NCBI RefSeq assembly: GCF_002211285.1
Contig: NZ_LOKX01000033.1
Coordinates: forward strand, 1-64,000
DNA: 64,000 nucleotides
Origin: Rhizobium sp. R635
GTDB lineage: Bacteria; Pseudomonadota; Alphaproteobacteria; Rhizobiales; Rhizobiaceae
Direction of reading: 5' to 3'
In this document: positions 12,052-25,052 of the stretch, one piece after another
Layout: each line of letters opens with the position of its first letter
How positions within the stretch are numbered: position 1 is the stretch's first letter
Notes under the pieces: generated by a model
What the model was told of the DNA's origin: nothing
Database searches by the model: none
Seen by the model: the letters and a program-made list of their open reading frames with translations, nothing else
Translations under genes and position numbers: made by a program

Positions 12052-12648
12052 CTACTGAACGTCCGCCAGCAGTCCGTCGAGGATCTCGACCATCTTCTGT
12101 TCGGCCTCCTTGAGCGAGCCGCTATTGTCGAGCTCCGTCACGTCGTAATCGCCGCGCACCGTCAGCGGTCCGCGGGCGAGCCGCGCCATGATGTCCTCAT
12201 GCGTCTCGCGTCCGCGCGCTTCCAGCCGGCCGGCCAGCACCTCTGGGCGGGCGGTGACGTTGATGACCTTCAGCCGCGGGAAGGCGGCCTGGAAGCGGTG
12301 AAGTGCGGAGCGCGAGCCGTTGGCGACGACGACATGGCCGCGTGACAGCGCCACCGAGACTTCGGCCGGAATGCCGTATTTCAGGCCGTGCGCTTCCCAC
12401 CAGACGGCGAAGGAACCTGATTGCTCCATGGCGGCAAAGCCTTCGAGGGAGACGGAAAGATGGTCTTCGCCGCCGGCGTCACGGTGACGGGTGATCACGC
12501 GGCGGGTGAAATGGACGTTGGCGCGGCCGGAAAAATGCCGGGCGGCAAGGTTCATCAGCGTGTCCTTGCCGGCGCCGCTCGGCCCGACGACGACGACCAT
12601 GATGCCGCGTTCGGCTCCGGCTCCGGGATGGGGTTCGTGCGGCGTCAT
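12052..12648 (-). CDS. phnN: ribose 1,5-bisphosphate phosphokinase PhnN
   Basis: The 198-residue kinase phosphorylates ribose 1,5-bisphosphate to PRPP, the last step that returns the ribose carrier of the C-P lyase pathway to nucleotide metabolism. It has a guanylate-kinase-like fold with Walker A GPSGAGKDT near the N-terminus, FTRRVITR and the GLKYGIP segment. Its ATG overlaps the phnM stop by four bases (ATGA), so it is the last gene of the uptake/late phn arm on the minus strand. The length matches the family of about 185-200 residues. Confidence 0.93.
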   Translation of the reverse strand: MTPHEPHPGAGAERGIMVVVVGPSGAGKDTLMNLAARHFSGRANVHFTRRVITRHRDAGGEDHLSVSLEGFAAMEQSGSFAVWWEAHGLKYGIPAEVSVALSRGHVVVANGSRSALHRFQAAFPRLKVINVTARPEVLAGRLEARGRETHEDIMARLARGPLTVRGDYDVTELDNSGSLKEAEQKMVEILDGLLADVQ

Positions 12649-13784
12649 GCGACACGGCGTCCCTGACGCCAGACGGAGCGTGTCACCGGCACGCCATGCG
12701 AGCGGTGGACGCGGACGAGATCGGCGCGCAGCCCGGTTGCGATCCGGCCGCGATCGTCGAGGCTGACGGTGCGGGCGGGCGTCGACGTCACCATCGCGAT
12801 CGCTTTCGGCAGCGTGATGCTTTCCACCTCGTCGGCGAGGATGAAGGGCGCATGTAGCAGGCTGAGCGGCACGTAATCGGAGGAGAGCACGTCGAGCACG
12901 CCCATCTCGGCGAGATCGCGGGCGGCGATGTTGCCGGAGTGGGATTTGCCGCGCACGATGTTCGGTGCCCCCATCAGCACGCTCATGCCATGCTCGTGCG
13001 AGGCGCGGGCTGCGTCGAAGCTGGTCGGGAATTCGGCAAGGCGCACGCCGTTGTCGATCGCCTCGTCGACATGGGAAAGCGTCGCGTCGTCATGGCTTGC
13101 GACCGTGATGCCGCGCTCGGCGCAGACCTTGGCGATGGCGTTGCGGTGCGGCGTCGAATTGCGCGCCGATTCCGCCTGGCGCTTGGCGACGAAACGGGCG
13201 AAGACCTCGTCGCTCAGGCCCCGCTTCTTTTGGTAGTAGAAGATATATTGATCCATCGTCTGGAATTGCCGCTGGCCGGGCGCATGATCCATCAGCGAGA
13301 CGAGCCGCACATGCGGGTCTTTTTCGAAATCGGCGAAATGTTCGAGCACGTTGTCCGCCGAGACTTCGCAGCGCAGGTGGATGAGGTGCTCGGCACGCAG
13401 CCTTCCCTCCTTCTCCGCCGCCTGGATGGCGTCGGCCATCTCACGCATCTCGCCATGTTCGAAGCCGCCGTCCTCGTCTGCGCCCATGCGCAGGCAGTCG
13501 AAGACCGTGGTGATGCCCGATGTGACGATCTGGGCGTCATGCGCCTGGACCGCGGCCGTCTTGTTCCAGCGAATGCCGGGGCGCGGCTGGTAGTGGCCTT
13601 CGAGATGGTCGGTATGCAGTTCCACGAGGCCGGGAATGATGTAGTCGCCTTCAAAATCTTCGCCGGCTACCGAGTTGCCCTCGGAAATATCGGCGATCTT
13701 CCCGTCGCGAATGAGGATCGATCCCTTGAGAATATTGTCTTCGAGAACGATGCGGGCGTTGGAAAACACGGTCTCTTTGCTCAT
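12645..13784 (-). CDS. phnM: alkylphosphonate triphosphate diphosphatase PhnM
   Basis: The 379-residue amidohydrolase removes pyrophosphate from alpha-D-ribose 1-methylphosphonate 5-triphosphate, giving the 5-phosphate that PhnJ cleaves. Metal-site motifs are visible: ELHTDHLEGH near residues 56-65, a central lysine/histidine region, TVASHDDAT, and a late SSDYVP aspartate. Its length matches E. coli PhnM. It lies between the DUF1045 gene (13-base gap) and phnN (ATGA overlap), so all three are probably translated from one transcript. Confidence 0.95.
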   Translation of the reverse strand: MSKETVFSNARIVLEDNILKGSILIRDGKIADISEGNSVAGEDFEGDYIIPGLVELHTDHLEGHYQPRPGIRWNKTAAVQAHDAQIVTSGITTVFDCLRMGADEDGGFEHGEMREMADAIQAAEKEGRLRAEHLIHLRCEVSADNVLEHFADFEKDPHVRLVSLMDHAPGQRQFQTMDQYIFYYQKKRGLSDEVFARFVAKRQAESARNSTPHRNAIAKVCAERGITVASHDDATLSHVDEAIDNGVRLAEFPTSFDAARASHEHGMSVLMGAPNIVRGKSHSGNIAARDLAEMGVLDVLSSDYVPLSLLHAPFILADEVESITLPKAIAMVTSTPARTVSLDDRGRIATGLRADLVRVHRSHGVPVTRSVWRQGRRVA

Positions 13785-13797
13785 GGCGTCAGGTCTT

Positions 13798-14493
13798 TCA
13801 GCTTTTGGCGCCGGCCAGCGGCAGCCAGGAATGAACTTTGAACGGGGCGCCGCGCGTCTCCTCGGTGAAGACGGCGAGGCCGGAAATCAAGAGCGGCCGG
13901 CCGGTGAAACCGGCAAAACGCTCGGTCAGGATCGCTCTCATCACGTCGGCGCGCGTCTCCGGCACCTGGCCGCTCAGCGTCATGTGAAAGCCGAAGTCCT
14001 CCATGACGTAAGGATAACCCCAGCGCTGCAGGTTGGCGCGCTGGCTCTCGCTGAGCTTTTCCGGGTTGCGCCTGATGATATCGGCCTCGGAGAGCGCCGC
14101 GCGAAACGGCTCGAAGGACTTTACCACCTTCGCGGCGAAATCCTGAAGAGGTTGATGAAGAGAGCCGGGAACAAGGGCGAAAAAGCGGCCGAGCTGGCCA
14201 AGCACGAGTTCGGGAATCTCGAAGGCCGGCGTGCGCGCGGCAAATTCCTCGGCAACGGTCATGAGATCTTTTTCGGTGACGGAGGCGGCGAGCGAAAACG
14301 GCGCCTTGATCGTGGCGTGAAAGCCGTAGCGTCGCGGGTCGGCTGTCAACTCGAATTGCTCAGCCGCGCCGAGCGTCTCATGGTCCGGTGCAGGATAGGT
14401 CTCGCCCGTAAAGGCGTCGCGGCCAAGCCAGAGCGAGGCCGCGCCGGTCAGGGGATGATCCTTCGGCGGCGAGAAATAGAGTGCGTAGCGCAA
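13798..14493 (-). CDS. DUF1045 2H phosphoesterase of phosphonate metabolism
   Basis: The 231-residue product belongs to the DUF1045 family found in phn clusters. It contains two HxT motifs, YGFHATIKAPF at about residue 58 and FGFHMTLSGQV at about residue 168, the signature of 2H phosphoesterases that open cyclic phosphodiesters. PhnJ action leaves a 1,2-cyclic ribose phosphate that E. coli opens with PhnP, and I find no phnP here, so this enzyme is a good candidate for that step (inference). The start is the TTG at 14493, preceded by AGGA and giving MRYALYFSP, the usual N-terminus of the family. The open frame continues far upstream through phnE2 but is a shadow there. Confidence 0.85.
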   Translation of the reverse strand: MRYALYFSPPKDHPLTGAASLWLGRDAFTGETYPAPDHETLGAAEQFELTADPRRYGFHATIKAPFSLAASVTEKDLMTVAEEFAARTPAFEIPELVLGQLGRFFALVPGSLHQPLQDFAAKVVKSFEPFRAALSEADIIRRNPEKLSESQRANLQRWGYPYVMEDFGFHMTLSGQVPETRADVMRAILTERFAGFTGRPLLISGLAVFTEETRGAPFKVHSWLPLAGAKS

Positions 14494-14636
14494 GGCTTTT
14501 ATCCTGGGGATCGTCGAAACGGGGGAGCGCAATGTGCAGTGATTTGGCGGCGAACCGCAAGCAGGTTCCCGGCTAAAAGATTTCCGTGACAGAATGATGA
14601 TGACGGCAGTGCCGCCATCGCCTTTCGACCGATGGG

Positions 14637-15980
14637 TCAGTGCGCTTTCGTGCCCATCAGCCGGTGGCGCAGCGCGTTCGAAGCCGTGTCGAACAGGAAG
14701 ACGACGATCAGGATCAGAATGACCATATAGGCGACGTTTTCCCAGTTGGCGTTGGTGCGCATCGCCTCCCAGAGTTTCAGCCCGATGCCGCCCGCGCCGA
14801 CGGCGCCGATGATGGTCGCGCCGCGCACGTTGGATTCCCACTGGTAGAGCGTCTGACTGACGATGACGGGAACGATCTGCGGCATAATGCCGTAACGATG
14901 GACGAGCACGGTCCGGGCGCCGGTCGATTGGATGCCTTCCCGTGGCTTGTTGTCGATATTCTCCAGCCCCTCGGAATAGAGCTTGCCGAGCGTGCCGGTC
15001 TCGGTGAGGAAGATCGCGCCGGAGCCGGCAAGCGGGCCGGGGCCGAAGGCCCGCGTCAGGAACAGCGCCCAGATCAGCATGTCGACCGAGCGCAGGAAAT
15101 CGAAGAAGCGCTTGAGAATCTGGTTCAGGAAGCGGTTCGGCGTGATGTTGCGCGCCGCCATGAAGGCGAGCGGGAAGGCGGCGAGCGAGCCGAGCAGCGT
15201 TCCGAGGAAGGCCATGACGATCGTCTGGAAAAGCTTGGTCCAGACGTCGCCATGCTGCCATTCGGCGTTGTTCCAGATGTCGTCGAAGGCGAGCGACAGG
15301 TTGGACTGGTCGGGTTTGATGCGCGGGCCGGAGACGATGAGGCTGACGACCTCGCCGGCCGGCCTGTCGAAGAAGGACGATTGCGGGTCGAAGAGGAAAT
15401 TCGCCCAGCCGATGAAACGCTTGCGGATCTTCACGCGGTCGGCGGAAATGCTGACGTCGCCGGCAAAGCCGAGATTTGCGAGCACGTTGTCGTCATAAAC
15501 GGTCATCCAGCTCGGCGCCGGTCCGACGACCTTAGGCGCGCCGCTCGAAACGTCGACGGGAACGCTGATCCCGTGGGCGGTCACGATCGTCTGGCTTTTC
15601 GAAACGGTGATGCTCCGGCTCGTGCCGCTGATGGAAACGGTGATGCTGCCGTCCGGGTTGTTGACCAGCCAATCGGGATGCGGATTGTCGCCGAGCGGCG
15701 AGAAACGGGGATAACGCACCTCGATCGAGCCGTCGTCCTGGATACGGAATTCCGGCTGGACGTCATAGCTTATCCATTGGCTGAGATAGATGCCGACGCG
15801 CTCCCAATGGGCCTCGGCGAAGAGCTTGGGCAGGTCGAAGAACCAGACGGCGTAGAGGCCGTAGAGCAGCGTCGCTATCAGGATCGTCAGCCCGCCGAAA
15901 CGCTGGCGGAACGAGCGTTGGAAGTATTCCGGATAGCGCGCTTCTATCTCGTTCATGCGGTTGGCGTCGATCACCGTCAT
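14637..15980 (-). CDS. phnE: phosphonate ABC transporter permease PhnE (second copy, long form)
   Basis: This 447-residue inner-membrane permease pairs with the shorter PhnE upstream to form the channel of the phosphonate importer. One membrane helix at about residues 29-48 is followed by a ~190-residue soluble stretch, rich in Ser/Val/Asp, that should lie in the periplasm. The conserved permease core with about five helices comes after that. The EAA-type coupling loop (EGIQSTGARTVLVHRYGIMPQIVP) and GAVGAGGIG motif are present. Ordinary PhnE proteins are about 260-320 residues, so the insertion is the main oddity. GAGG precedes the ATG, and the gene starts seven bases after the stop of phnE1. 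Confidence 0.92.
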   Translation of the reverse strand: MTVIDANRMNEIEARYPEYFQRSFRQRFGGLTILIATLLYGLYAVWFFDLPKLFAEAHWERVGIYLSQWISYDVQPEFRIQDDGSIEVRYPRFSPLGDNPHPDWLVNNPDGSITVSISGTSRSITVSKSQTIVTAHGISVPVDVSSGAPKVVGPAPSWMTVYDDNVLANLGFAGDVSISADRVKIRKRFIGWANFLFDPQSSFFDRPAGEVVSLIVSGPRIKPDQSNLSLAFDDIWNNAEWQHGDVWTKLFQTIVMAFLGTLLGSLAAFPLAFMAARNITPNRFLNQILKRFFDFLRSVDMLIWALFLTRAFGPGPLAGSGAIFLTETGTLGKLYSEGLENIDNKPREGIQSTGARTVLVHRYGIMPQIVPVIVSQTLYQWESNVRGATIIGAVGAGGIGLKLWEAMRTNANWENVAYMVILILIVVFLFDTASNALRHRLMGTKAH

Positions 15981-15987
15981 GGCGGCC

Positions 15988-16947
15988 TCAATGTTGCAGG
16001 AGGAAGGCGTGATCGCCGACGAGCCGGCGGCGCAGCCACGCGGAGAACTGGTCGACGGCGACGATCGTCACGAAGAGCAGGAGAACGAGCGCCATCGTCT
16101 TGGCGCCGAAGCCGCGCGAGATCGAAAGCTTCAGCTCCTCGCCGATGCCGCCGCCGCCGACGGCGCCGATGATGGTCGAGGCGCGCACGTTGATCTCAAG
16201 GCGCAGCAGCGCATAGGAGGTGAAATTCGGCAGCACCTGCGGCAGGGCGGCGAAGCGCACGCGCTCCCACCAGTTGGCGCCGACGGCTTTCATGCCCTCA
16301 TGCGGCTTCATGTCGATATTCTCCGCCACCTCGTAGAAGAGTTTGCCGAGCGCGCCGATCGTGTGCAGGGTGATGGCGATGATGGCCGCGACCGGCCCGA
16401 TCGACAGGATCGCCGAAAACAGCCCGGCGATGACGATCTCGGGGAAGGCGCGCAGGAATTCCATCAGGCGCTTGGTGAAGACGCGCAGCGGCAATGAAGC
16501 CGTCAGGTTGCGCGCGGCAAAGAAGCTCAAGGGGACGGCAAAGACGAAGGCGATGATGGTCGAGATCAGCGCCACGTTGATCGTGACGATCATCAGCTCG
16601 AAATATTCGGGAATGTAGAAAGCGCCCCAGACGTAGACGCGGCCCTTGTCGAAATTGAATTCCTCGCCGCCCTTGTCGTTGACGCTCGCTATGTCGAACA
16701 GCGCGCGCCAGACATCGTTCCAATCCTTGGGGATGAGCCAGCTCAGGAAGTCGAAGAGATGCGGCAGGCGGTCGAAGAAATGGCCGGCATTGCTCTCGTC
16801 GGCAAAACGGACGGAGCTTACGAAAGCCGCAATGAGGATGACGAGGCCGAGTACGGTGTAGAAGCGGCGCCTGGCGACCATCCGGCCCCAGGCGGTGCCG
16901 ATCTCCTGCGTGCTCTGCATGTGCGGCTGTGTATCGGCAATAGTCAT
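15988..16947 (-). CDS. phnE: phosphonate ABC transporter permease PhnE (first copy)
   Basis: The 319-residue inner-membrane protein has an N-terminal helix (VLGLVILIAAFVSSV), a short periplasmic segment and the binding-protein-dependent permease core. The coupling loop (HEGMKAVGANWWERVRFAALPQVLPNF) contacts the PhnC ATPase, and GAVGGGGIGEEL follows. With PhnC, PhnD and the second PhnE it should import phosphonates or phosphate esters. It lies between phnD and the long phnE in the same operon. Confidence 0.94.
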   Translation of the reverse strand: MTIADTQPHMQSTQEIGTAWGRMVARRRFYTVLGLVILIAAFVSSVRFADESNAGHFFDRLPHLFDFLSWLIPKDWNDVWRALFDIASVNDKGGEEFNFDKGRVYVWGAFYIPEYFELMIVTINVALISTIIAFVFAVPLSFFAARNLTASLPLRVFTKRLMEFLRAFPEIVIAGLFSAILSIGPVAAIIAITLHTIGALGKLFYEVAENIDMKPHEGMKAVGANWWERVRFAALPQVLPNFTSYALLRLEINVRASTIIGAVGGGGIGEELKLSISRGFGAKTMALVLLLFVTIVAVDQFSAWLRRRLVGDHAFLLQH

Positions 16948-17013
16948 GGACGCCCCGACCGGTAATAAAGATAAAGGGCGGCCGTTGCCGGCCGCCCCGT
17001 ATTCGAAAGGCGA

Positions 17014-17919
17014 TCAGCCGCCGATGGCAGCTTTGCGGACGTCGACGACGGCATTGTAGAAGTCGTGCTTGACCGGGGCGTAGCCCTGGTAGTCGCCGCC
17101 TTCGACAGCCGTGAAGCACTTGTGATCCTTTGCCGGCAGGGCCGTGAAGAAGGCCGCGAGCTTCGTCTGCCATTCTTCGCCGAGGGCGTTGCGAACGACG
17201 AGCGGGCCGTTCGGGATCAGCGGCGAACGCCAGACTTCGACGAGCTTGTTCGGATCGACGGCGCCCTTGTCGACTTCCTTGCGGAAGGTGCCGGAGGTGT
17301 AGCCGTCCTTGAAATCGCCGAGGCCAGACGAATCGTCGACGGCGATGTCGACCTTGCCGTCATAAGCGGCGAGCAGGTTGTTCTCGTGGCCGCCGTTGAA
17401 CTGCGTCGAAGCGAAGAACTTGTCGTTCGGCATGCCCGTGTCCTTCGGGATCTGCGTCAGCGGAACGAGGTAGCCCGAGGTGGAGTCCGGATCGGCGTAG
17501 CCGAGCTTTTTGCCCTTGGCGTCCTTGATGGACTTGATGCCGGAGGACTTCAGAGCGAGACCGATCGAGTAGTAGCCGGTCGAACCGTCCTTCTGCTGCG
17601 TCGTCAGGATCGGCGTAACGGCCTTCGGGTCCTTGATGTAGACGGCCGCATAGCCGGAAGCGCCGAGTTCGGCGAAGTCGAGCGTGCCGCCGAGCAGGCC
17701 CTGGATGACGCCGTCATAATCGGCGGCCGGGAAGAGTGAAACCTTCTCGAAGCCGAATTCCTGCTTCAGGTGGTCGGCGAGGCAGGCATAGTTGCGCAGG
17801 CGGTCGGTTTCGTTTTCGCCGCCGAGGATGCCGATGCGGAATTCCTTGAGGTCCGCAGCGTTGGCGCCGCCGGCGAGCGCAAAGAGCGCCGTTGCCGCAA
17901 AGAGTGCTTTCTTCAACAT
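17014..17919 (-). CDS. phnD: phosphonate-binding periplasmic protein PhnD
   Basis: The 301-residue product has a clear signal peptide (MLKKALFAATALFALAGGANA-A) and the two-lobe fold of phosphate/phosphite/phosphonate-binding proteins, with FRIGILGGENETDRLRNYA near the start, ELGASGYAAVYI and DPDSTSGYLVP in the ligand region. It delivers phosphonate to the PhnC-PhnE transporter. A GGAGAG site precedes the ATG. phnC lies 88 bases upstream on the same strand. Confidence 0.95.
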   Translation of the reverse strand: MLKKALFAATALFALAGGANAADLKEFRIGILGGENETDRLRNYACLADHLKQEFGFEKVSLFPAADYDGVIQGLLGGTLDFAELGASGYAAVYIKDPKAVTPILTTQQKDGSTGYYSIGLALKSSGIKSIKDAKGKKLGYADPDSTSGYLVPLTQIPKDTGMPNDKFFASTQFNGGHENNLLAAYDGKVDIAVDDSSGLGDFKDGYTSGTFRKEVDKGAVDPNKLVEVWRSPLIPNGPLVVRNALGEEWQTKLAAFFTALPAKDHKCFTAVEGGDYQGYAPVKHDFYNAVVDVRKAAIGG

Positions 17920-18007
17920 GAGTTCTCTCCTATTGACCGGTATCTCCGGCCTTCCCGTTACGAAGAAGTGTGCCCTTGACGCGGGCGCTCGATCGCGGCC
18001 GCCTCGC

Positions 18008-18856
18008 TCAGAGGCCGGCCAGCGCCAGCGGCTGGACGCCGGCGGATGGATTGTCTGCCCGCTCGGGAGCGATATTGATCGACGTTGACGTCATCGTTTC
18101 GTCGATGCCGGCGCCGTCCTTGTCCGTCCCGTAGATTTCCTTCACCGCTTCGCCCGTCAGATCCGAGGGCCTGCCGTCGAAGACCACGCGGCCGTGGGCC
18201 ATGCCGACGATGCGCTCACAATAGCTGCGGGCGGTATCGAGCGTGTGGAGGTTGGTGATGACGGTGATGCCCTCGCGCTCGTTGATATCGCGCAGCGCAT
18301 CCATGACGATCTTGGCGTTCAGCGGATCGAGCGAGGCGATCGGCTCGTCGGCGAGCACCATCTTCGGGTTCTGCATCAGGGCGCGAGCGATCGCCACACG
18401 CTGCTGCTGGCCGCCGGAAAGCGTGCCGGCCGGCTGCAGGGCGGTCTGTTCGATGCCGAGGCGTTCGAGCGCTGCGATCGCATGCACGCGCTCTTCGCGG
18501 GTGAAGATGTTGAGCAGGCTGAGAAGCGTCGAGCGGTGATTGAGGCGGCCGAGCATGACATTTGTGAGAACGTCGAGACGCGGCACCAGATTGAACTGCT
18601 GGAAGATCATCGCGCAGTCGCGCTGCCAGTTCCGCAACGCTCCGCCGCGAAGCCTGGAGACCTCGATGCCGGCGAAATGAATGGAGCCGGAACTCGGTTC
18701 CTGCAGGCGGTTGATCATGCGCAGGAGCGTCGACTTGCCGGCGCCGGAGCGGCCGATGATGCCGACCATTTGGCCCTGGGGAATGGTGAGGGTCACGGAG
18801 TCGACAGCGAGCTTGTTTCCGAAACGACGTGTGACATCTTTCAGCTCGAACATCAT
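18008..18856 (-). CDS. phnC: phosphonate ABC transporter ATP-binding protein PhnC
   Basis: The 282-residue cytoplasmic ATPase powers phosphonate import. Walker [11 protein letters not shown]-loop FQQFNL, signature [14 protein letters not shown] and Walker B MVLADEP are intact. I chose the ATG at 18856, with AAGGGA upstream, because PhnC proteins begin near [11 protein letters not shown]; the open frame extends 23 codons further without need. It is the first gene of the phnC-D-E-E-DUF1045-M-N arm, and a PHO-box-like sequence lies about 60-80 bases upstream. Confidence 0.94.
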
Positions 18857-18918
18857 GCTGGTCCCTTGCATTCCAAGCCTTGGTCCGCATCGCATTAGTC
18901 CCGCTTCATGAACCTCCA

Positions 18919-18936
18919 ATGTCATATTTGTGTAAG
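18919..18936. promoter_or_regulatory. weak PHO-box-like site upstream of phnC
   Basis: ATGTCAT-ATTT-GTGTAAG resembles the PhoB recognition pattern of two 7-base CTGTCAT-like units at 11-base spacing. The first unit matches 6 of 7 positions and the second only 4 of 7, and it reads on the strand opposite to phnC. It lies in the 115-base gap before phnC. Confidence 0.4.
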
Positions 18937-18971
18937 TCGCGTCACAAATCCCGGCGCCGTGACGGGAGCAT

Positions 18972-19589
18972 CTAGCCCTCGTAGCGCGCCAGAAAATCTT
19001 CCGCGCTCAGGTTGCGGAAATCCTGCAAAGCCAGGCGCAGACGATCATGCTCCCAGTCCCACCAGGCAAGCCTGTCCATGCGTTCACCGATCTCTTTCGG
19101 GAAGCGCTCTCGGATCAGCTTCGCCGGCACACCGCCGACGATCGTGTAGGGTGCGACGTCTTTCGACACCACGGCGCCGGCACCGATGACGGCGCCGTTG
19201 CCGACGCTGACGCCCGGCAGGATGGTCGCCCCGTGCCCGATCCAGACGTCGTGGCCGATCGTCACGCGGTTTGCGCGCCGCCAGGCGAAGAAGTCCGTCT
19301 CCATGTCGCCGTCCGGCCAGTAGTCGGCGGCGCGATAGGTGAAATGATGCAGTGTCGCGCGCCATGTCGGATGGTTGGTGGCGTTGATGCGCACGGCGGC
19401 GGCGATATTGACGAACTTGCCGATCGTCGCGCACCAGACGGCGCCATCCTGCATGATGTAGGAGTAGTCGCCGAACTCGGCCTCGCTGATGCGGCAGCGC
19501 TCGGAGACCTCCGTATAGCGCCCGAAGGTGGAGTGGCTGACATCAGCCGTTTCGTGGAAATAGGGCTCGGTGCCCAGCTTGCGGCTCAT
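18972..19589 (-). CDS. hexapeptide-repeat transferase of phosphonate metabolism
   Basis: The 205-residue product is a left-handed beta-helix acyltransferase of the chloramphenicol-acetyltransferase (XAT) type. It shows repeated [LIV]-G-x4 hexapeptides ([33 protein letters not shown]) and the active-site region NATNHPTW. This family recurs in phn clusters downstream of phnL and is unrelated to the GNAT-type PhnO of E. coli. It may acetylate aminophosphonates (inference). Its ATG overlaps the phnL stop by four bases, which ties it to the core C-P lyase operon. It is the last gene of that arm. Confidence 0.85.
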
Positions 19590-20293
19590 GCGGCGATCTT
19601 CCTTGGTGAGAACTGCTGGACGTCGAGGATGCGGTCGGCGACCGCCTCGCGAACTTCCTCGTCGTGGAAGATGCCGAGAAGGGCGACACCCGCGCTCTTC
19701 TTCTCCGCGATCATGTCGACGACGACGGCGCGGTTTTTCGCGTCGAGTGAGGCTGTGGGTTCGTCGAGAAGCAAGATCCTATGCTCGGTGATGAAGCCGC
19801 GCGCAATGTTGACGCGCTGCTGCTCGCCGCCGGAGAAGGTGGCGGGCGGAAGCTGCCAGAGCGCTTCCGGCAGGTTGAGCCTGGCGAGCAGGGCGCCTGC
19901 CTTTTCCCGAGCGGCGGCCATTTCTTCGCCGCGCGCCACGAGCGGCTCGGCCACCACGTCGATCGCCGCCACGCGCGGCACGGTGCGCAGGAACTGGCTG
20001 ACATAGCCGAGCGTATTGCGGCGGACATTGAGCACGGTGCGCGGATCGGCGGAAGCGAGGTCGACGATGCGCCCGTCGTGGCGAATGAGGATCTGGCCGG
20101 TGTCGACGGCATAATTGCCGTAGATCATCTTGAGCAGCGAACTCTTGCCGATGCCCGAGGGGCCGCCGAGCACGACGCATTCGCCAGCCGCGACCGAGAA
20201 GGCGACATCGGAGACGACGGGCAGCCTGATGCCGTCGCGCAGATGCATGGTGAAGCTCTTCGAGACTTCGGAAACGACGAGGGGTGTGGGCAT
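19586..20293 (-). CDS. phnL: C-P lyase accessory ABC-type ATPase PhnL
   Basis: The 235-residue ATPase resembles LolD-type ABC proteins, with Walker A GGPSGIGKSS, signature FSGGEQQRVNIARG and Walker B ILLLDEPTAS. In E. coli PhnL forms a dimer with PhnK that docks on the PhnGHIJ core complex and is not a transporter subunit. It follows phnK on the same strand with a 31-base gap. Confidence 0.94.
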   Translation of the reverse strand: MPTPLVVSEVSKSFTMHLRDGIRLPVVSDVAFSVAAGECVVLGGPSGIGKSSLLKMIYGNYAVDTGQILIRHDGRIVDLASADPRTVLNVRRNTLGYVSQFLRTVPRVAAIDVVAEPLVARGEEMAAAREKAGALLARLNLPEALWQLPPATFSGGEQQRVNIARGFITEHRILLLDEPTASLDAKNRAVVVDMIAEKKSAGVALLGIFHDEEVREAVADRILDVQQFSPRKIAA

Positions 20294-20324
20294 GACTTCT
20301 TCTTTCCTGGCTTTTTAACGAGGC

Positions 20325-21101
20325 TCAGACCTGCAGGATCGAGGAGACGAGCAGCTGCGTGTAGGGTTCGTGCGGATCGTCGAGCACGCGGTCGGTGAGA
20401 CCCTGTTCGATGACGTAGCCGTCCTTCATCACCATCATCCGGTGGGAGAGCAGGCGGGCGACGGCAAGATCATGGGTGACGATGATCGCCGAGAGGCCGA
20501 GATCGTTGACGAGGCCGCGCACGAGATCGAGCAGGCGCGCCTGCACCGAGACGTCGAGGCCGCCCGTGGGTTCGTCCATGAAAACGAGGCGCGGGCCGGT
20601 GACGAGATTGCGGGCGATCTGCAGCCGCTGGCGCATGCCGCCGGAAAAGGCGCGCGGCTGGTCGTCGATGCGGTCGGCGTCGATCTCGACGCGTTCGAGC
20701 CAGTCGATGGCGGTCGAGCGGATCTTGCCGTAGTGCCGATCGCCGATCGCCATCAGCCGTTCACCGACATTGGCGCCCGCAGAGACGGTCATGCGCAGCC
20801 CGTCGGCCGGGTTCTGGTGCACGAAACCCCAGTCGGTGCGCATCAGGAAGCGGCGCTCTGCCTCGTTCATGTGGTAGAGGTCGCGGTAGCTGCCGTCGCG
20901 CATGTGATATTCGACGCTGCCGGTCGATGGCATCAGCCGGGTGGAGATGCAGTTGAGCAGCGTCGTCTTGCCCGAACCGGATTCGCCGACGATGGCGAGC
21001 ACTTCGCCCGGCCAGAGCTCGAAAGAGACGTTCCGGCAGCCGATGCGATTGCCGTAGAATTTCGAGAGGTCGTTGACTTTGAGAAGCGGTGTGTCGGTCA
21101 T
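20325..21101 (-). CDS. phnK: C-P lyase accessory ABC-type ATPase PhnK
   Basis: The 258-residue protein resembles oligopeptide-transport ATPases, with Walker [10 protein letters not shown], signature FSGGMRQRLQIARN and Walker B LVFMDEPTGG. PhnK binds the PhnJ subunits of the C-P lyase core and, together with PhnL, is thought to drive conformational change. Its ATG overlaps the phnJ stop (ATGA). Confidence 0.95.
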   Translation of the reverse strand: MTDTPLLKVNDLSKFYGNRIGCRNVSFELWPGEVLAIVGESGSGKTTLLNCISTRLMPSTGSVEYHMRDGSYRDLYHMNEAERRFLMRTDWGFVHQNPADGLRMTVSAGANVGERLMAIGDRHYGKIRSTAIDWLERVEIDADRIDDQPRAFSGGMRQRLQIARNLVTGPRLVFMDEPTGGLDVSVQARLLDLVRGLVNDLGLSAIIVTHDLAVARLLSHRMMVMKDGYVIEQGLTDRVLDDPHEPYTQLLVSSILQV

Positions 21102-21973
21102 TCTGCAGCCTCCCGGGCCAGCATTTCGCCGGCATGTCCCTGTGCGCGGCGATCTTCGCAGTGGTCGGTATCGGAGCAGACGAACATGCGCCCGCCCTTG
21201 TCGTCGAGGATGACCTCATCGAGGTAGACCTCCTCCGCGCCGCAAAGCGCGCAAGGCTTGCCGAAACGCTGGATCTCGAAGGGATGGTCTTCGAAGTCCA
21301 GGCTGACGACATCGGTATAGGGCGGCACGGCATAGATACGCTTTTCGCGGCCGGCGCCGAAAAGCTGCAGCGCTTCCGACCTGTGCATCTTCGGATTATC
21401 GAATTTCGGCGTCGGCGAGGGGTCCATGACGTAGCGGCCATGCACCTTGACCGGATAGGCGTAGGTCGTGGCGATGCGGCCGTTGCGGGCGATATCCTCG
21501 TAGAGCTTCACATGCATGAGGCCATATTCCTCAAGCGCATGCATCTTGCGCGTCTCGGTCTCGCGCGGTTCGAGGAAGCGCAGCGGTTCCGGAATCGGCA
21601 CCTGGTAGACGAGCACCTGGCCTTCACCGAGTTTTTCCTCCGGGATGCGGTGGCGCGTCTGGATGATCGTCGCCTCGCTGGTGCGCGTCGTCACCGCGAC
21701 ATTGGCGACCTTCTGGAAGAAGGCGCGGATCGAAACGGCGTTGGTCGTGTCGTCGGCGCCCTGGTCTATCACCTTCAGCACGTCGTCAGGCCCGATGATC
21801 GAGGCCGTCACCTGCACGCCGCCGGTGCCCCAGCCATAGGGCATCGGCATTTCTCTGCTGGCGAAGGGCACCTGATAGCCCGGAATGGCGATCGCCTTCA
21901 GGATGGCGCGGCGGATCATCCGCTTGGTCTGTTCGTCGAGATAAGCGAAGTTGTAGCTGGCGAGATCACTCAT
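21098..21973 (-). CDS. phnJ: C-P lyase radical SAM subunit PhnJ
   Basis: The 291-residue enzyme cleaves the carbon-phosphorus bond by S-adenosylmethionine radical chemistry, releasing the alkane and a 1,2-cyclic ribose phosphate. The required cysteines fall at residues 241, 244, 266 and 272 with the spacing C-x2-C-x21-C-x5-C, identical in number and spacing to E. coli PhnJ. The first three bind the iron-sulfur cluster and the fourth is the thiyl radical residue. GYNFAYLDEQTKR-type N-terminal sequence is present. It overlaps phnI and phnK by four bases on either side, as expected for stoichiometric complex subunits. Confidence 0.97.
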   Translation of the reverse strand: MSDLASYNFAYLDEQTKRMIRRAILKAIAIPGYQVPFASREMPMPYGWGTGGVQVTASIIGPDDVLKVIDQGADDTTNAVSIRAFFQKVANVAVTTRTSEATIIQTRHRIPEEKLGEGQVLVYQVPIPEPLRFLEPRETETRKMHALEEYGLMHVKLYEDIARNGRIATTYAYPVKVHGRYVMDPSPTPKFDNPKMHRSEALQLFGAGREKRIYAVPPYTDVVSLDFEDHPFEIQRFGKPCALCGAEEVYLDEVILDDKGGRMFVCSDTDHCEDRRAQGHAGEMLAREAAE

Positions 21974-23076
21974 TCGGCGGCTTCCTTCATGTCTTCGCCG
22001 CTGCTGCGGGCGGCTTCGAATTCGCGGCGCATGCGGCGGACGAGATCGAGTTCGGCCTGGAAGTCCACATAATGCGGAAGTTTCAGGTGCTCGACGAAGC
22101 CCGTCGCCTGGACGTTGTCGGAATGGGAGATGACGAATTCCTCGTCCTGTGCCGGCGCGGTAATGTCCTCGCCGAGCTCTTCGGCGCGAAGCGCGCGATC
22201 GACCAGCGACATCGCCATCGCCTTGCGCTCGCTCTGGCCGAAGACCAGGCCGTAGCCGCGGGTAAACTGCGGCGGCGCCTTAGCGGAGCCTTTGAACTGG
22301 TTGACCATCTGGCATTCGGTGATCTGGATCGTGCCGAGCGAGACGGCGAAACCGAGCTCCGGCACGTCGAATTCCACTTCGACCTCGCCGATGCGGATTT
22401 CGCCGGTGAAGGGATGGTTGCGGCCGTAGCCGCGCTGGGTGGAATAACCGAGCGCCAGCAGGAAGCCCTCGTCGCCGCGGGACAGCGCCTGCAGGCGCAG
22501 GTCGCGGGTCATCGGGAATTCCATCGGCTCGCGTGTGAGATCGCCGATCTCGTGATCTTCGGGCATGTCGCCGTCGGCCTCGATCAGGCCCTCTTCGCCG
22601 AGGATTTCGGAGACGCGCATGATACGGCCGGTATCGGCCGGACGCTGGGCCGGCGCCTCGACCGCTTCGTCCTCAAGCAGCGAGGGATCGAGCAGCCGGT
22701 GGGTATAATCGAAGGTGGGGCCAAGCAGCTGGCCGCCCGGCAGGTCCTTGTAGGTTGCCGAGATGCGGCGCTCGATCGTCATATCAGCCGTGTCGAGCGG
22801 CTTGGAATAGCCGAAGCGCGGCAGCGTCGTGCGGTAAGCGCGCAGCAGGAAGATCGCCTCGATCATGTCGCCGCGCGATTGACGGACGGCGAGTGCGGCG
22901 AGCGTGCGGTCGAAAAGCGAGGCCTCGGCCATGACGCGGTCGACGGCGAGGGCGAGCTGTTCGACGATCTGCTCGATGCCGATCGCGGGCACGGAGCGGT
23001 CGCCGCGCCGGCGGTCGGCAAGCAGCCGGTGGGCATTGGCGATGGCGGTCTCGCCACCTTTGACGGCAACATACAT
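21970..23076 (-). CDS. phnI: C-P lyase core subunit PhnI
   Basis: The 368-residue protein is the nucleosidase-like subunit that, with PhnG, PhnH and PhnL, couples phosphonate to the ribose of ATP, releasing adenine. MYVAVKGGETAIANAH at the start and RGYGRNHPFTGEIRIGEV later are characteristic of the family. It sits four bases after phnH and overlaps the phnJ start. Confidence 0.95.
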   Translation of the reverse strand: MYVAVKGGETAIANAHRLLADRRRGDRSVPAIGIEQIVEQLALAVDRVMAEASLFDRTLAALAVRQSRGDMIEAIFLLRAYRTTLPRFGYSKPLDTADMTIERRISATYKDLPGGQLLGPTFDYTHRLLDPSLLEDEAVEAPAQRPADTGRIMRVSEILGEEGLIEADGDMPEDHEIGDLTREPMEFPMTRDLRLQALSRGDEGFLLALGYSTQRGYGRNHPFTGEIRIGEVEVEFDVPELGFAVSLGTIQITECQMVNQFKGSAKAPPQFTRGYGLVFGQSERKAMAMSLVDRALRAEELGEDITAPAQDEEFVISHSDNVQATGFVEHLKLPHYVDFQAELDLVRRMRREFEAARSSGEDMKEAAE

Positions 23077-23080
23077 GAGC

Positions 23081-23692
23081 TCAGATCTCCGTTGCTGTGA
23101 TCTTGGTGGTGCGCGGCAGGCAGACGAAGCGCTTGCCCGATGTCAGCACGATGTCGATGCCGCGCGGAAAGAGCACGCGGTTCTCGGTCCAGAGCCTGAG
23201 AAAGGTCTCCGGCAGGCCGGACGGCGCGATCTCCGTGACGCTCTGGATACCCGGACCCATCAGCGCCAGCCTGCGTCCGCCTTCGAGTTCGGGAAGTTCG
23301 ATGACGACAGTCGTCGAGCGGTCTGGATATTCCTGCGTGCCCGATGCGAAGAGGCCGAAGGAACAAAGCGCGGTGCCCGCCTCGATGAAGGCAAAGCGCG
23401 CATCCGCCTTTTCCTGGATCACCGGAGCGCCGGTGTGGAAGCCGAGCCATTCCGGCACCGCGGATTTCGCCAGTCCCGAGGTAAGCCAGACAGGCGTGTC
23501 GTGGTCGCAAAGGGTGAGTGCGATCGTGCCGGCGGCAATGCCGAGCGGCGCCGGCGGATCGATATCGGGCTCGACGCTCCGAATGGTGCCGGGGCGGGCC
23601 ATGCCGTCCATCAGCATCTTGAAGACGCTCTGCGCATGGAAAACCGGGTCGGCAAAACCGCCGGTCAAGGCTTCCGTCGTGAGGCCCATCAA
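23081..23692 (-). CDS. phnH: C-P lyase core subunit PhnH
   Basis: The 203-residue protein is the PhnH subunit of the core complex and has a fold related to PLP-dependent transferases but without the cofactor lysine. The N-terminal GGFADPVFHAQSVFKMLMDGMARPG segment is diagnostic. The gene overlaps phnG by four bases. Confidence 0.94.
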   Translation of the reverse strand: MMGLTTEALTGGFADPVFHAQSVFKMLMDGMARPGTIRSVEPDIDPPAPLGIAAGTIALTLCDHDTPVWLTSGLAKSAVPEWLGFHTGAPVIQEKADARFAFIEAGTALCSFGLFASGTQEYPDRSTTVVIELPELEGGRRLALMGPGIQSVTEIAPSGLPETFLRLWTENRVLFPRGIDIVLTSGKRFVCLPRTTKITATEI

Positions 23693-24165
23693 TTGTCTCC
23701 CCGTACCATGGTGAAGAAATCGACGCGGGTCGCGGCCGTCTCGTCCGCCTTGCGGCGCTCGGTTGCGGCGATCCGCTCAGTGATCGGCGAAAGCAGCGCC
23801 TGTTCGACGAAGTGCCTTGTCGCATCCTCCTGCCAGAGCGCGTCGAGGATCGCCGCAAGACGGGCCTTCTCTCGGTCGGCGCCGAGCGCCTGCGCATGGC
23901 CGATGCAGCCGGACTCGAGCCGCACCGTCGCGCGCGTCACCGTCACCTCGCCGAGATTGAAGGGGGCTCCGCCGCCGCCGATGCGGCCGCGCACCATCAC
24001 GAGCCCGGTTTCCGGCCCGCGCACCGGAAACGCCACGGGCTTTTGCGGCAACGCATCCCAAGCCGCCTGGAGTTCGCTGGGTTCCGCGCGCGCCAGCAGA
24101 TCGGCGGCGCGTTTGCGCCCCGAGACCGTCTGTGACGCAGCGTCTTTCCTGTCCGCTGATATCAT
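23689..24165 (-). CDS. phnG: C-P lyase core subunit PhnG
   Basis: The 158-residue protein begins the core C-P lyase operon. It shows the family's conserved GGGGAPFNLGEVTVTRA, GYAQALG-like (GHAQALGADR) and DALWQ motifs. The ATG at 24165 is preceded by GAGGAA at good spacing. An upstream in-frame TTG at 24201 overlaps the inverted repeat proposed as PhnF operator, so it is unlikely to be the start. Confidence 0.93.
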   Translation of the reverse strand: MISADRKDAASQTVSGRKRAADLLARAEPSELQAAWDALPQKPVAFPVRGPETGLVMVRGRIGGGGAPFNLGEVTVTRATVRLESGCIGHAQALGADREKARLAAILDALWQEDATRHFVEQALLSPITERIAATERRKADETAATRVDFFTMVRGDN

Positions 24166-24182
24166 CGCCGCTTTCCTCAAAA

Positions 24183-24200
24183 TGTCTATTGATATAGACA
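24183..24200. promoter_or_regulatory. inverted repeat, likely PhnF operator
   Basis: TGTCTAT-TGAT-ATAGACA is a perfect 7-bp inverted repeat in the phnG-phnF divergent region, just upstream of the phnG ribosome site. GntR/HutC regulators such as PhnF bind AT-rich palindromes of this type. Its position would block phnG transcription when occupied. Confidence 0.6.
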
Positions 24201-24235
24201 ACCATACAAGCTATACCTAGCCTTAAATCGGTGTC

Positions 24236-24253
24236 GTGACAAGCGTGTGACAT
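24236..24253 (-). promoter_or_regulatory. PHO box upstream of phnG
   Basis: Reading on the minus strand towards phnG, ATGTCAC-ACGC-TTGTCAC forms two 7-base units at 11-base spacing, close to the CTGTCAT-N4-CTGTCAT pattern bound by PhoB in alphaproteobacteria (about 5 of 7 positions in each). It lies 71 bases upstream of the phnG start. Confidence 0.55.
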
Positions 24254-24314
24254 CCAGCGCATCGTGCGTCCCTCGGACGCGATGCGCAAAGCGTGAAAAG
24301 ACAGGGCAGGCTGA

Positions 24315-25052
24315 ATGGCAGGGCTGAAGCAGGTGCAGAGGCAAACGGGCGTGGCGCTCTGGCGTCAGATCGCCGATCGCATTCGCGAGGCGATCGGCAA
24401 CGGAGCCTATGACGAAACGGGAATGGTGCCGCCGGAAACGGTGCTGGCGCTGCAATTCGGCGTCAACCGGCATACGGTGCGCAGTGCGCTGGCGGCGCTG
24501 GCGCAGGAGGGAATCGTGCGCGCGGTACAGGGTCGCGGCACGCTGATCGAGCGCAAGGAGCGGCTGAATTTCCCAATCACGCGGCGCACGCGCTTCACCG
24601 CCGGCATCGGCGATCAGGCGCGCGAAATGCGCGGTCTTCTGCTGGATGAGGCGCAGGAAGAGGCGAGCGCCGACGTCGCCCGCTGGCTGGGCCTGAAACA
24701 GGGCGAGCAGGTAATCCGGCTGGAAACCTTGCGCCATGCCGACAGGCGGCCGGTTTCAAAGGCGACGAGCTGGTTTCCCGCCGAACGCTTCGCCGGGATC
24801 GGGCAAGCCTACCGAAAGCATGAATCGATCACCAAGGCTTTCGCCGAACTCGGCCTGTCGGATTATGTCCGCGCCACGACCGAGGTGACGGCCGCCCATG
24901 CGGGCACGGCGGATCTCGCCGATCTGGAACTCACCCCCGGCGCGATCCTGTTGATCGCCAAGGCGATGAATACCGATCTCGAAGGTGTACCGGTGCAATA
25001 TTCCATCAGCCGCTTTGCGGCCGACCGTGTGCAATTCACCATCGAGAATTGA
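24315..25052 (+). CDS. phnF: GntR/HutC family regulator PhnF
   Basis: The 245-residue protein has an N-terminal winged helix (LWRQIADRIREAIGNGAYDETGMVPPETVLALQFGVNRHTVRSALAALAQEGIVR split over residues 15-70) and a C-terminal UTRA ligand-binding domain. PhnF usually represses phosphonate genes. It is divergent from phnG and separated by about 150 bases that contain an inverted repeat and a PHO-box-like site, so it probably controls the core operon and perhaps itself. Confidence 0.9.
   Translation: MAGLKQVQRQTGVALWRQIADRIREAIGNGAYDETGMVPPETVLALQFGVNRHTVRSALAALAQEGIVRAVQGRGTLIERKERLNFPITRRTRFTAGIGDQAREMRGLLLDEAQEEASADVARWLGLKQGEQVIRLETLRHADRRPVSKATSWFPAERFAGIGQAYRKHESITKAFAELGLSDYVRATTEVTAAHAGTADLADLELTPGAILLIAKAMNTDLEGVPVQYSISRFAADRVQFTIEN

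Follow-up and report, generated by a model that had tools for sequence, protein, structure and literature searches.

Predicted 2H phosphoesterase of the DUF1045 family as a likely substitute for PhnP in the phosphonate cluster of Rhizobium sp. R635, and its purine-linked paralogues

The window analysed in this work is a stretch of 64,000 nucleotides from Rhizobium sp. R635 (assembly GCF_002211285.1, contig NZ_LOKX01000033.1, positions 1 to 64,000), which carries a carbon-phosphorus (C-P) lyase gene cluster (phn) with a gene of the DUF1045 family at 13798-14493. We regard it as very likely that this gene encodes a phosphoribosyl cyclic phosphodiesterase of predicted 2H fold, which takes the place of PhnP, the enzyme of the metallo-beta-lactamase (MBL) type. 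The basis for this prediction comprises the family assignment, the fold, the conservation of motifs, the genomic linkage and the exclusion of PhnP; what we infer is the nature of the substrate, the part played by each histidine and a ring opening that leaves the phosphate on carbon 1. The initial annotation had noted the lack of phnP and proposed the DUF1045 protein as its likely replacement. The observation is confirmed; its interpretation is very probably right, had been proposed earlier and is already in print (in a 2013 paper, a 2021 paper and a 2023 review), and the genome comparisons presented here make it much likelier. The gene and its two motifs, which the initial annotation had noted, are:

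13798..14493, minus strand: DUF1045/TIGR03223 2H phosphoesterase, proposed phosphoribosyl cyclic phosphodiesterase (TIGR03223, PF06299, predicted 2H fold)
14311..14319, minus strand: first HxT motif, H59-A60-T61 (sequence)
13978..13986, minus strand: second HxT motif, H170-M171-T172 (sequence)

The product (231 residues, with a TTG start codon preceded by AGGA) matches TIGR03223 over residues 1-227 with a score of 275.7 bits (cut-off 248.95, E-value 2.9e-82) and PF06299 with 193.6 bits; its membership of the family is far beyond chance. TIGR03223 is labelled "putative phosphonate metabolism protein", and the copy in the window is a further member with nothing essential different, located likewise beside phnM and phnN; its closest relative among the 80 loci listed is that of Rhizobium sp. 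R634 (94% identity). The only Pfam matches with E-value <= 0.001 are DUF1045 itself and, weakly, 2_5_RNA_ligase2. In the alignment of 73 full-length copies, which leaves aside four purine-linked paralogues from the genus of the window (see below), H59, T61 and H170 are kept in all 73, and T172 in 72, with Ser in the remaining one. All four His/Thr(Ser) positions are intact in 61/61 full-length phn-linked copies from the survey of genomes described below and in 13/13 further ones, as expected for catalysis. Additionally, R2, Y6, Y56, R131, R142 and Y160 show little or no variation, and some of them may contact the 5-phosphate. The second motif reads HxS in 3 of the 80 named DUF1045 loci; these had been pre-selected on the first motif and are not counted as evidence.

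The AlphaFold2 model of the protein (53 sequences; predicted local distance difference test score 95.0, predicted template modelling score 0.89) has the 2H fold. Foldseek reported as the best matches YjcG (E-value 2.1e-7), followed by an archaeal 2'-5' ligase-like protein and the Arabidopsis Appr>p phosphodiesterase (E-value 2.0e-6), and VIA-align confirmed the similarity over most of the model (YjcG, Z-score: 15.2; Arabidopsis 1jh6, Z-score: 13.9; E. coli LigT, Z-score: 13.3; AKAP18 central domain, Z-score: 12.3). Neither Pfam nor the fold search revealed a match to the metallo-beta-lactamase domain. A search of the solved structures with the single DUF1045 sequence found no relative (the best E-value, 0.39, belonged to an unrelated protein), and the DUF1045 profile reported YjcG (2d4g) alone, with an E-value of 0.098; the structural case therefore rests on fold comparison. 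The Arabidopsis cyclic phosphodiesterase (1JH6/1FSI) is a 2H protein like DUF1045, aligned over 167 residues, although with 11% identity and a length of 181 versus 231 residues. A passage of PMC5283653 describes its action on a ribose 1'',2''-cyclic phosphate, namely that of adenosine diphosphate (ADP)-ribose; its substrate carries ADP where that proposed for DUF1045 carries the 5-phosphate.

The phylogenetic profile of the family was established by profile searches for phnJ, DUF1045 and PhnP in 398 genomes of the phylum, with 14 named genomes as controls. phnJ scored over the cut-off in 83 of the 398, and these contain either DUF1045 (62 genomes) or PhnP (19 genomes), never both, with only two (G374 and G377) containing neither; Fisher's exact test for this mutual exclusion gives p = 8e-17, shared ancestry ignored. 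phnJ accompanies PhnP in 19/19 genomes, and of the 315 genomes without phnJ only 7 have DUF1045. Among the controls phnJ was found in E. coli alone, which possesses PhnP and lacks DUF1045. The true PhnP proteins score at least 296 bits and the next best protein of the survey 108.3 bits, which makes for a clean split. In these counts G040 (with a phnJ fragment under the cut-off) is taken as a genome without phnJ, G371 (with DUF1045 under the cut-off) is dropped, and so are G210 and G288, in which the DUF1045 matches exceed the cut-off yet are weak and partial (37.8 and 30.1 bits). PhnP is seen in eight taxonomic families, and DUF1045 together with phnJ in thirteen. As to the genome of Rhizobium sp. 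R635 itself, the lack of PhnP noted for the window holds for the entire 5.82 Mb: no protein matches the PhnP model TIGR03307 over its cut-off of 272.25 bits, and the sole match with E-value <= 0.001, on another contig, is a Lactamase_B_2 protein with 23.4 bits, apparently a housekeeping one.

The genomic context of DUF1045 points in the same direction. In the window the gene is located between phnM and phnE, which agrees with its reported position directly before phnM. The stretches fetched around 79 DUF1045 genes contain a phn core gene in 62 cases, place DUF1045 beside phnCDE in one (L159, which on account of these neighbours is counted as phn-linked, for a total of 63/79), in a purine cluster in five and elsewhere in 11. 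In seven loci from the family of the window (L095-L101) phnJ is encoded elsewhere, yet DUF1045 is followed directly by phnM and phnN. Of the 62 genomes with both phnJ and DUF1045, 60 contain PhnN (59 of them over the cut-off; it is missing in G016 and G032), as do 9/9 PhnP genomes examined out of the 19 and the two genomes that lack PhnP and DUF1045 alike. The substrate of PhnN is ribose 1,5-bisphosphate, so the ring opening should leave the phosphate on carbon 1. In the scheme that we propose, the PhnJ reaction, established for E. coli, sets the alkane free and yields 5-phosphoribosyl 1,2-cyclic phosphate; the two HxT motifs of DUF1045 would bind this cyclic phosphate, with one histidine activating a water molecule and the other protonating the leaving 2-oxygen; the ring would thus open to ribose 1,5-bisphosphate, from which PhnN would produce phosphoribosyl pyrophosphate. 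The proposed reaction and its place in the pathway are those of E. coli PhnP, the MBL-type fold of which is unrelated to the 2H fold. The PHP-type enzyme PhnPP of Eggerthella is another replacement of PhnP, as we propose for DUF1045. Its pathway yields ribose 5-phosphate (as given in a passage of PMC8774927), which would make PhnN needless, whereas the window keeps PhnN. No PHP family is present among the Pfam matches (E-value <= 0.001) of the DUF1045 protein of the window, the one protein of the genome to which this search was applied.

Statements in several published works agree with this prediction. Martinez et al. 2013 (PMC3840354) gave the name RcsF to a 2H gene found in a cluster of this kind, with a probable role as that of PhnP, and the Aminobacter paper of 2021 (PMC8235418) refers to DUF1045 as a putative phosphoribosyl cyclic phosphodiesterase, citing an earlier source. 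A passage of the 2023 review (PMC10574752), in turn citing the PhnP structure paper of 2009, counts 54 operons, 27 of them with PhnP, and rcsF in 16 of those without phnP. Among the published evidence, that from genetics is the strongest: the fosmid B3_TF_MPn_2, which contains rcsF and lacks phnP, enables growth on methylphosphonate of an E. coli strain deleted for phnHIJKLMNOP (PMC3840354), and phnP mutants of E. coli are described as unable to convert phosphonate to a usable phosphorus compound (PMC3463581). rcsF is probably DUF1045, to judge from the 2H label and description and from gene order rather than from the fosmid sequence, since the order phnM, rcsF, phnNL given for Roseovarius (PMC5649143) is equal to phnM-DUF1045-phnN-phnL in our loci L118, L121 and L139. 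For Phaeobacter, a DUF1045 protein is also listed with other phn proteins as part of the response to phosphate starvation (PMC10132767), and pSymB of Sinorhizobium meliloti has phnC-D-E-E-DUF1045-phnM-phnN, the same order as the window. The open-licence literature that we searched contained no direct assay of any DUF1045 protein.

Several observations weigh against the proposed role. The exclusion partly follows phylogeny, as all 19 PhnP genomes belong to classes other than that of the window, and only in one family (f43) do some genomes carry PhnP and others DUF1045. The phnJ genomes G374 and G377 contain phnN but neither PhnP nor DUF1045, and reading their phn loci (L164 and L165, respectively) revealed no candidate replacement for both. 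Six of the seven genomes that have DUF1045 without phnJ also lack PhnN, which indicates that the use of the family extends beyond C-P lyase. In five phnJ genomes (G299, G319, G321, G325 and G392) the only DUF1045 gene is located away from the phn genes, with both HxT motifs kept. The top fold match, YjcG, has a putative function, and the 2H fold is common to enzymes with other specificities. Finally, the rcsF of the published fosmid is matched to DUF1045 only by description and gene order.

With these points in mind, one may ask if the true substrates of DUF1045 are different, for instance 2',3'-cyclic nucleotides, on which 2H enzymes are known to act; the seven genomes with DUF1045 and without phnJ would fit this. 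We consider it very improbable, as it leaves unexplained why DUF1045 is absent from 19/19 PhnP genomes and encoded in 62 of the remaining 64 genomes with phnJ, and why it is found beside phnM and phnN where phnJ is elsewhere (L095-L101). DUF1045 might also be a 2H domain that binds a ligand without catalysis and thereby acts as a regulator of the pathway, in analogy to the central domain of AKAP18, which binds adenosine monophosphate and is among the fold matches; the loss of catalytic residues in the purine-linked relatives (see below) is in line with such a role, but all four His/Thr(Ser) positions are intact in every one of the 61 and 13 phn-linked copies, and we regard this explanation as highly improbable.

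Alternatively, an MBL protein encoded elsewhere could perform the PhnP step and DUF1045 could have a different job, an explanation for which one might invoke the 23.4-bit match of the Lactamase_B_2 protein to the PhnP model, or the scores of 76.7-85.9 bits that proteins from four genomes with phnJ and DUF1045 (G247, G280, G357 and G361) reach with it. These scores are well below those of the true PhnP proteins given above, the Lactamase_B_2 gene follows two open reading frames (ORFs) that we read by eye as metG and tatD, and the published growth with the fosmid was obtained in a host deleted for phnP, to which the fosmid did not supply it. Moreover, the Lactamase_B_2 protein is found in 28/28 genomes examined from the same order; 14 of these lack phnJ, so its occurrence is not tied to the use of phosphonates (one genome from another class, included in the same search, lacks the protein). 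We therefore reject this protein as the PhnP of the genome, since it looks like a housekeeping one, scores under the cut-off and is independent of phnJ, and regard the explanation as a whole as very improbable. The replacement of PhnP by a DUF1045 phosphodiesterase, supported by the mutual exclusion, the predicted fold, the intact motifs, the siting with phnM and phnN and the fosmid genetics, remains by far the preferred reading.

The window is one more example of a common phn arrangement. The predicted assignment of DUF1045 would carry the pathway-closing step for a large share of the bacteria of soil and sea, in processes that concern the release of methane from methylphosphonate and the breakdown of glyphosate, and if true, it would provide a clear case of non-orthologous replacement inside one pathway. 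The annotation of any metallo-beta-lactamase as "PhnP" could mask such a replacement. None of the surveyed genomes from the class of the window, to which Marivita belongs, contains PhnP over the cut-off. According to PMC8774927, in which genes are given with their KEGG K numbers, each of seven Marivita genomes has phnP; given the lack of PhnP in the class surveyed, these assignments may reflect other MBL proteins.

The newer and less expected part of our findings is a second DUF1045 gene in the same genome, located on another contig (G000:C34:43531-44238; L004:7532-8239, minus strand). Its product is 43% identical to that of the window, and its sequence reads HGV and HMP where the HxT motifs would be expected. 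The gene adjoins a puuE-type gene (Pfam polysaccharide deacetylase) and a ureidoglycolate lyase gene, and the same order is found in a Sinorhizobium meliloti record and on a Rhizobium leguminosarum plasmid, where the neighbours are annotated as puuE, uraD and ureidoglycolate lyase. We identified 21 distinct Rhizobiaceae copies linked to the urate/allantoin cluster (L273 only via a neighbouring flavin adenine dinucleotide oxidoreductase), and they form one clade with a support of 99.9 in a tree from which the long-branched L162 and L152 and truncated copies were omitted; a smaller tree with 7 purine-linked copies and midpoint rooting placed the clade among the phn-linked copies. At least one of H59, T61, H170 and T172 is lost in 20 of the 21 copies (with Ser allowed for Thr), and the substitutions differ (V, M, A, P, N, Q, R, Y, K and others), while L105 keeps all four residues and has Y56, R142 and Y160 changed. 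The ratio of nonsynonymous to synonymous substitution rates is 0.09-0.15 among five purine-linked copies from the genus of the window, similar to the 0.13-0.18 among four phn-linked ones, which indicates that in this genus the purine-linked gene is under purifying selection and is not decaying. Judging from their sequences, the purine-linked copies look like maintained non-catalytic proteins. It seems reasonably likely that a single duplication of a phn-type DUF1045 gene in Rhizobiaceae was recruited to the urate/allantoin cluster, where the active site was lost in various ways and the protein was kept, either as a pseudo-phosphoesterase or with a new activity; a pseudo-phosphoesterase might perhaps sense a ribose phosphate or a purine ligand. 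The loss of these residues in the purine-linked copies versus their retention in the phn-linked ones strengthens the catalytic reading of the latter, and the presence of an intact phn-linked and a degenerate purine-linked copy in one genome provides a natural control pair for the PhnP-replacement hypothesis.

The C-P lyase genes of the window, recognized among the ORFs by family-model searches and named after models that each score over a curated cut-off, are all contained within 12052-25052. The presence of phnGHIJKL, phnCDEE, phnM and phnN, as listed in the initial annotation, agrees with a family-model match for each; phnF is present too, although at 24315-25052, just beyond the range of 12052-24253 to which it had been assigned. 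Besides DUF1045, the genes are:

12052..12648, minus strand: phnN, ribose 1,5-bisphosphokinase, for which the expected DUF1045 product is the substrate (TIGR02322, 220.1 bits, cut-off 156)
12645..13784, minus strand: phnM, triphosphate diphosphatase (NF011983, 690.6 bits)
14637..15980, minus strand: phnE permease, second (TIGR01097, 247.2 bits)
15988..16947, minus strand: phnE permease, first (TIGR01097, 241.6 bits)
17014..17919, minus strand: phnD binding protein (TIGR03431, 292.6 bits)
18008..18859, minus strand: phnC ATPase (TIGR02315, 315.5 bits)
18972..19589, minus strand: hexapeptide-repeat transferase of phosphonate clusters (TIGR03308, 331.9 bits)
19586..20293, minus strand: phnL (TIGR02324, 334.7 bits)
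20325..21101, minus strand: phnK (TIGR02323, 414.2 bits)
21098..21973, minus strand: phnJ, C-P lyase, maker of the cyclic phosphate (PF06007, 497 bits)
21970..23076, minus strand: phnI (PF05861, 551.3 bits)
23081..23692, minus strand: phnH (TIGR03292, 199.9 bits)
23689..24201, minus strand: phnG (TIGR03293, 157.8 bits)
24315..25052, plus strand: phnF regulator, divergent (TIGR02325, 320.6 bits)

The 5.82 Mb genome (99.97% complete) contains a single copy of phnJ, which rules out a second C-P lyase. The gap between phnF and phnG contains a Pho-box-like sequence (24253-24236, minus strand) that agrees with the Pho-box consensus at 10 of 14 positions, a weak match, as scores of at least 10 occur 26 times in the window. 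A search for DUF1045 relatives on viral contigs returned 8 pattern-matching stretches, none of them encoding a relative.

Analysis of the remaining loci revealed further arrangements of DUF1045. In L113 (G095) and L161 (G322), from genomes without phnJ, the gene is found beside a phnM-like gene, in L161 also beside phnN, hinting at an enzyme set used apart from C-P lyase. In L115-L117, L119, L125, L127, L131, L157, L169 and L170 it adjoins a divergent PhnM-like gene, the product of which exhibits 29-32% identity to PhnM of the window; L116 and L131 carry in addition a closer phnM (51% and 49% identity, respectively). Another locus, L163 (G194:C103), contains two further phn clusters, in each of which the DUF1045 frame is broken or shortened, with an intact copy on another contig. 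Hexapeptide-repeat transferases of the TIGR03308 family are common in phn clusters and are also found near DUF1045 and the phnM-like gene in L115-L117 and L119.

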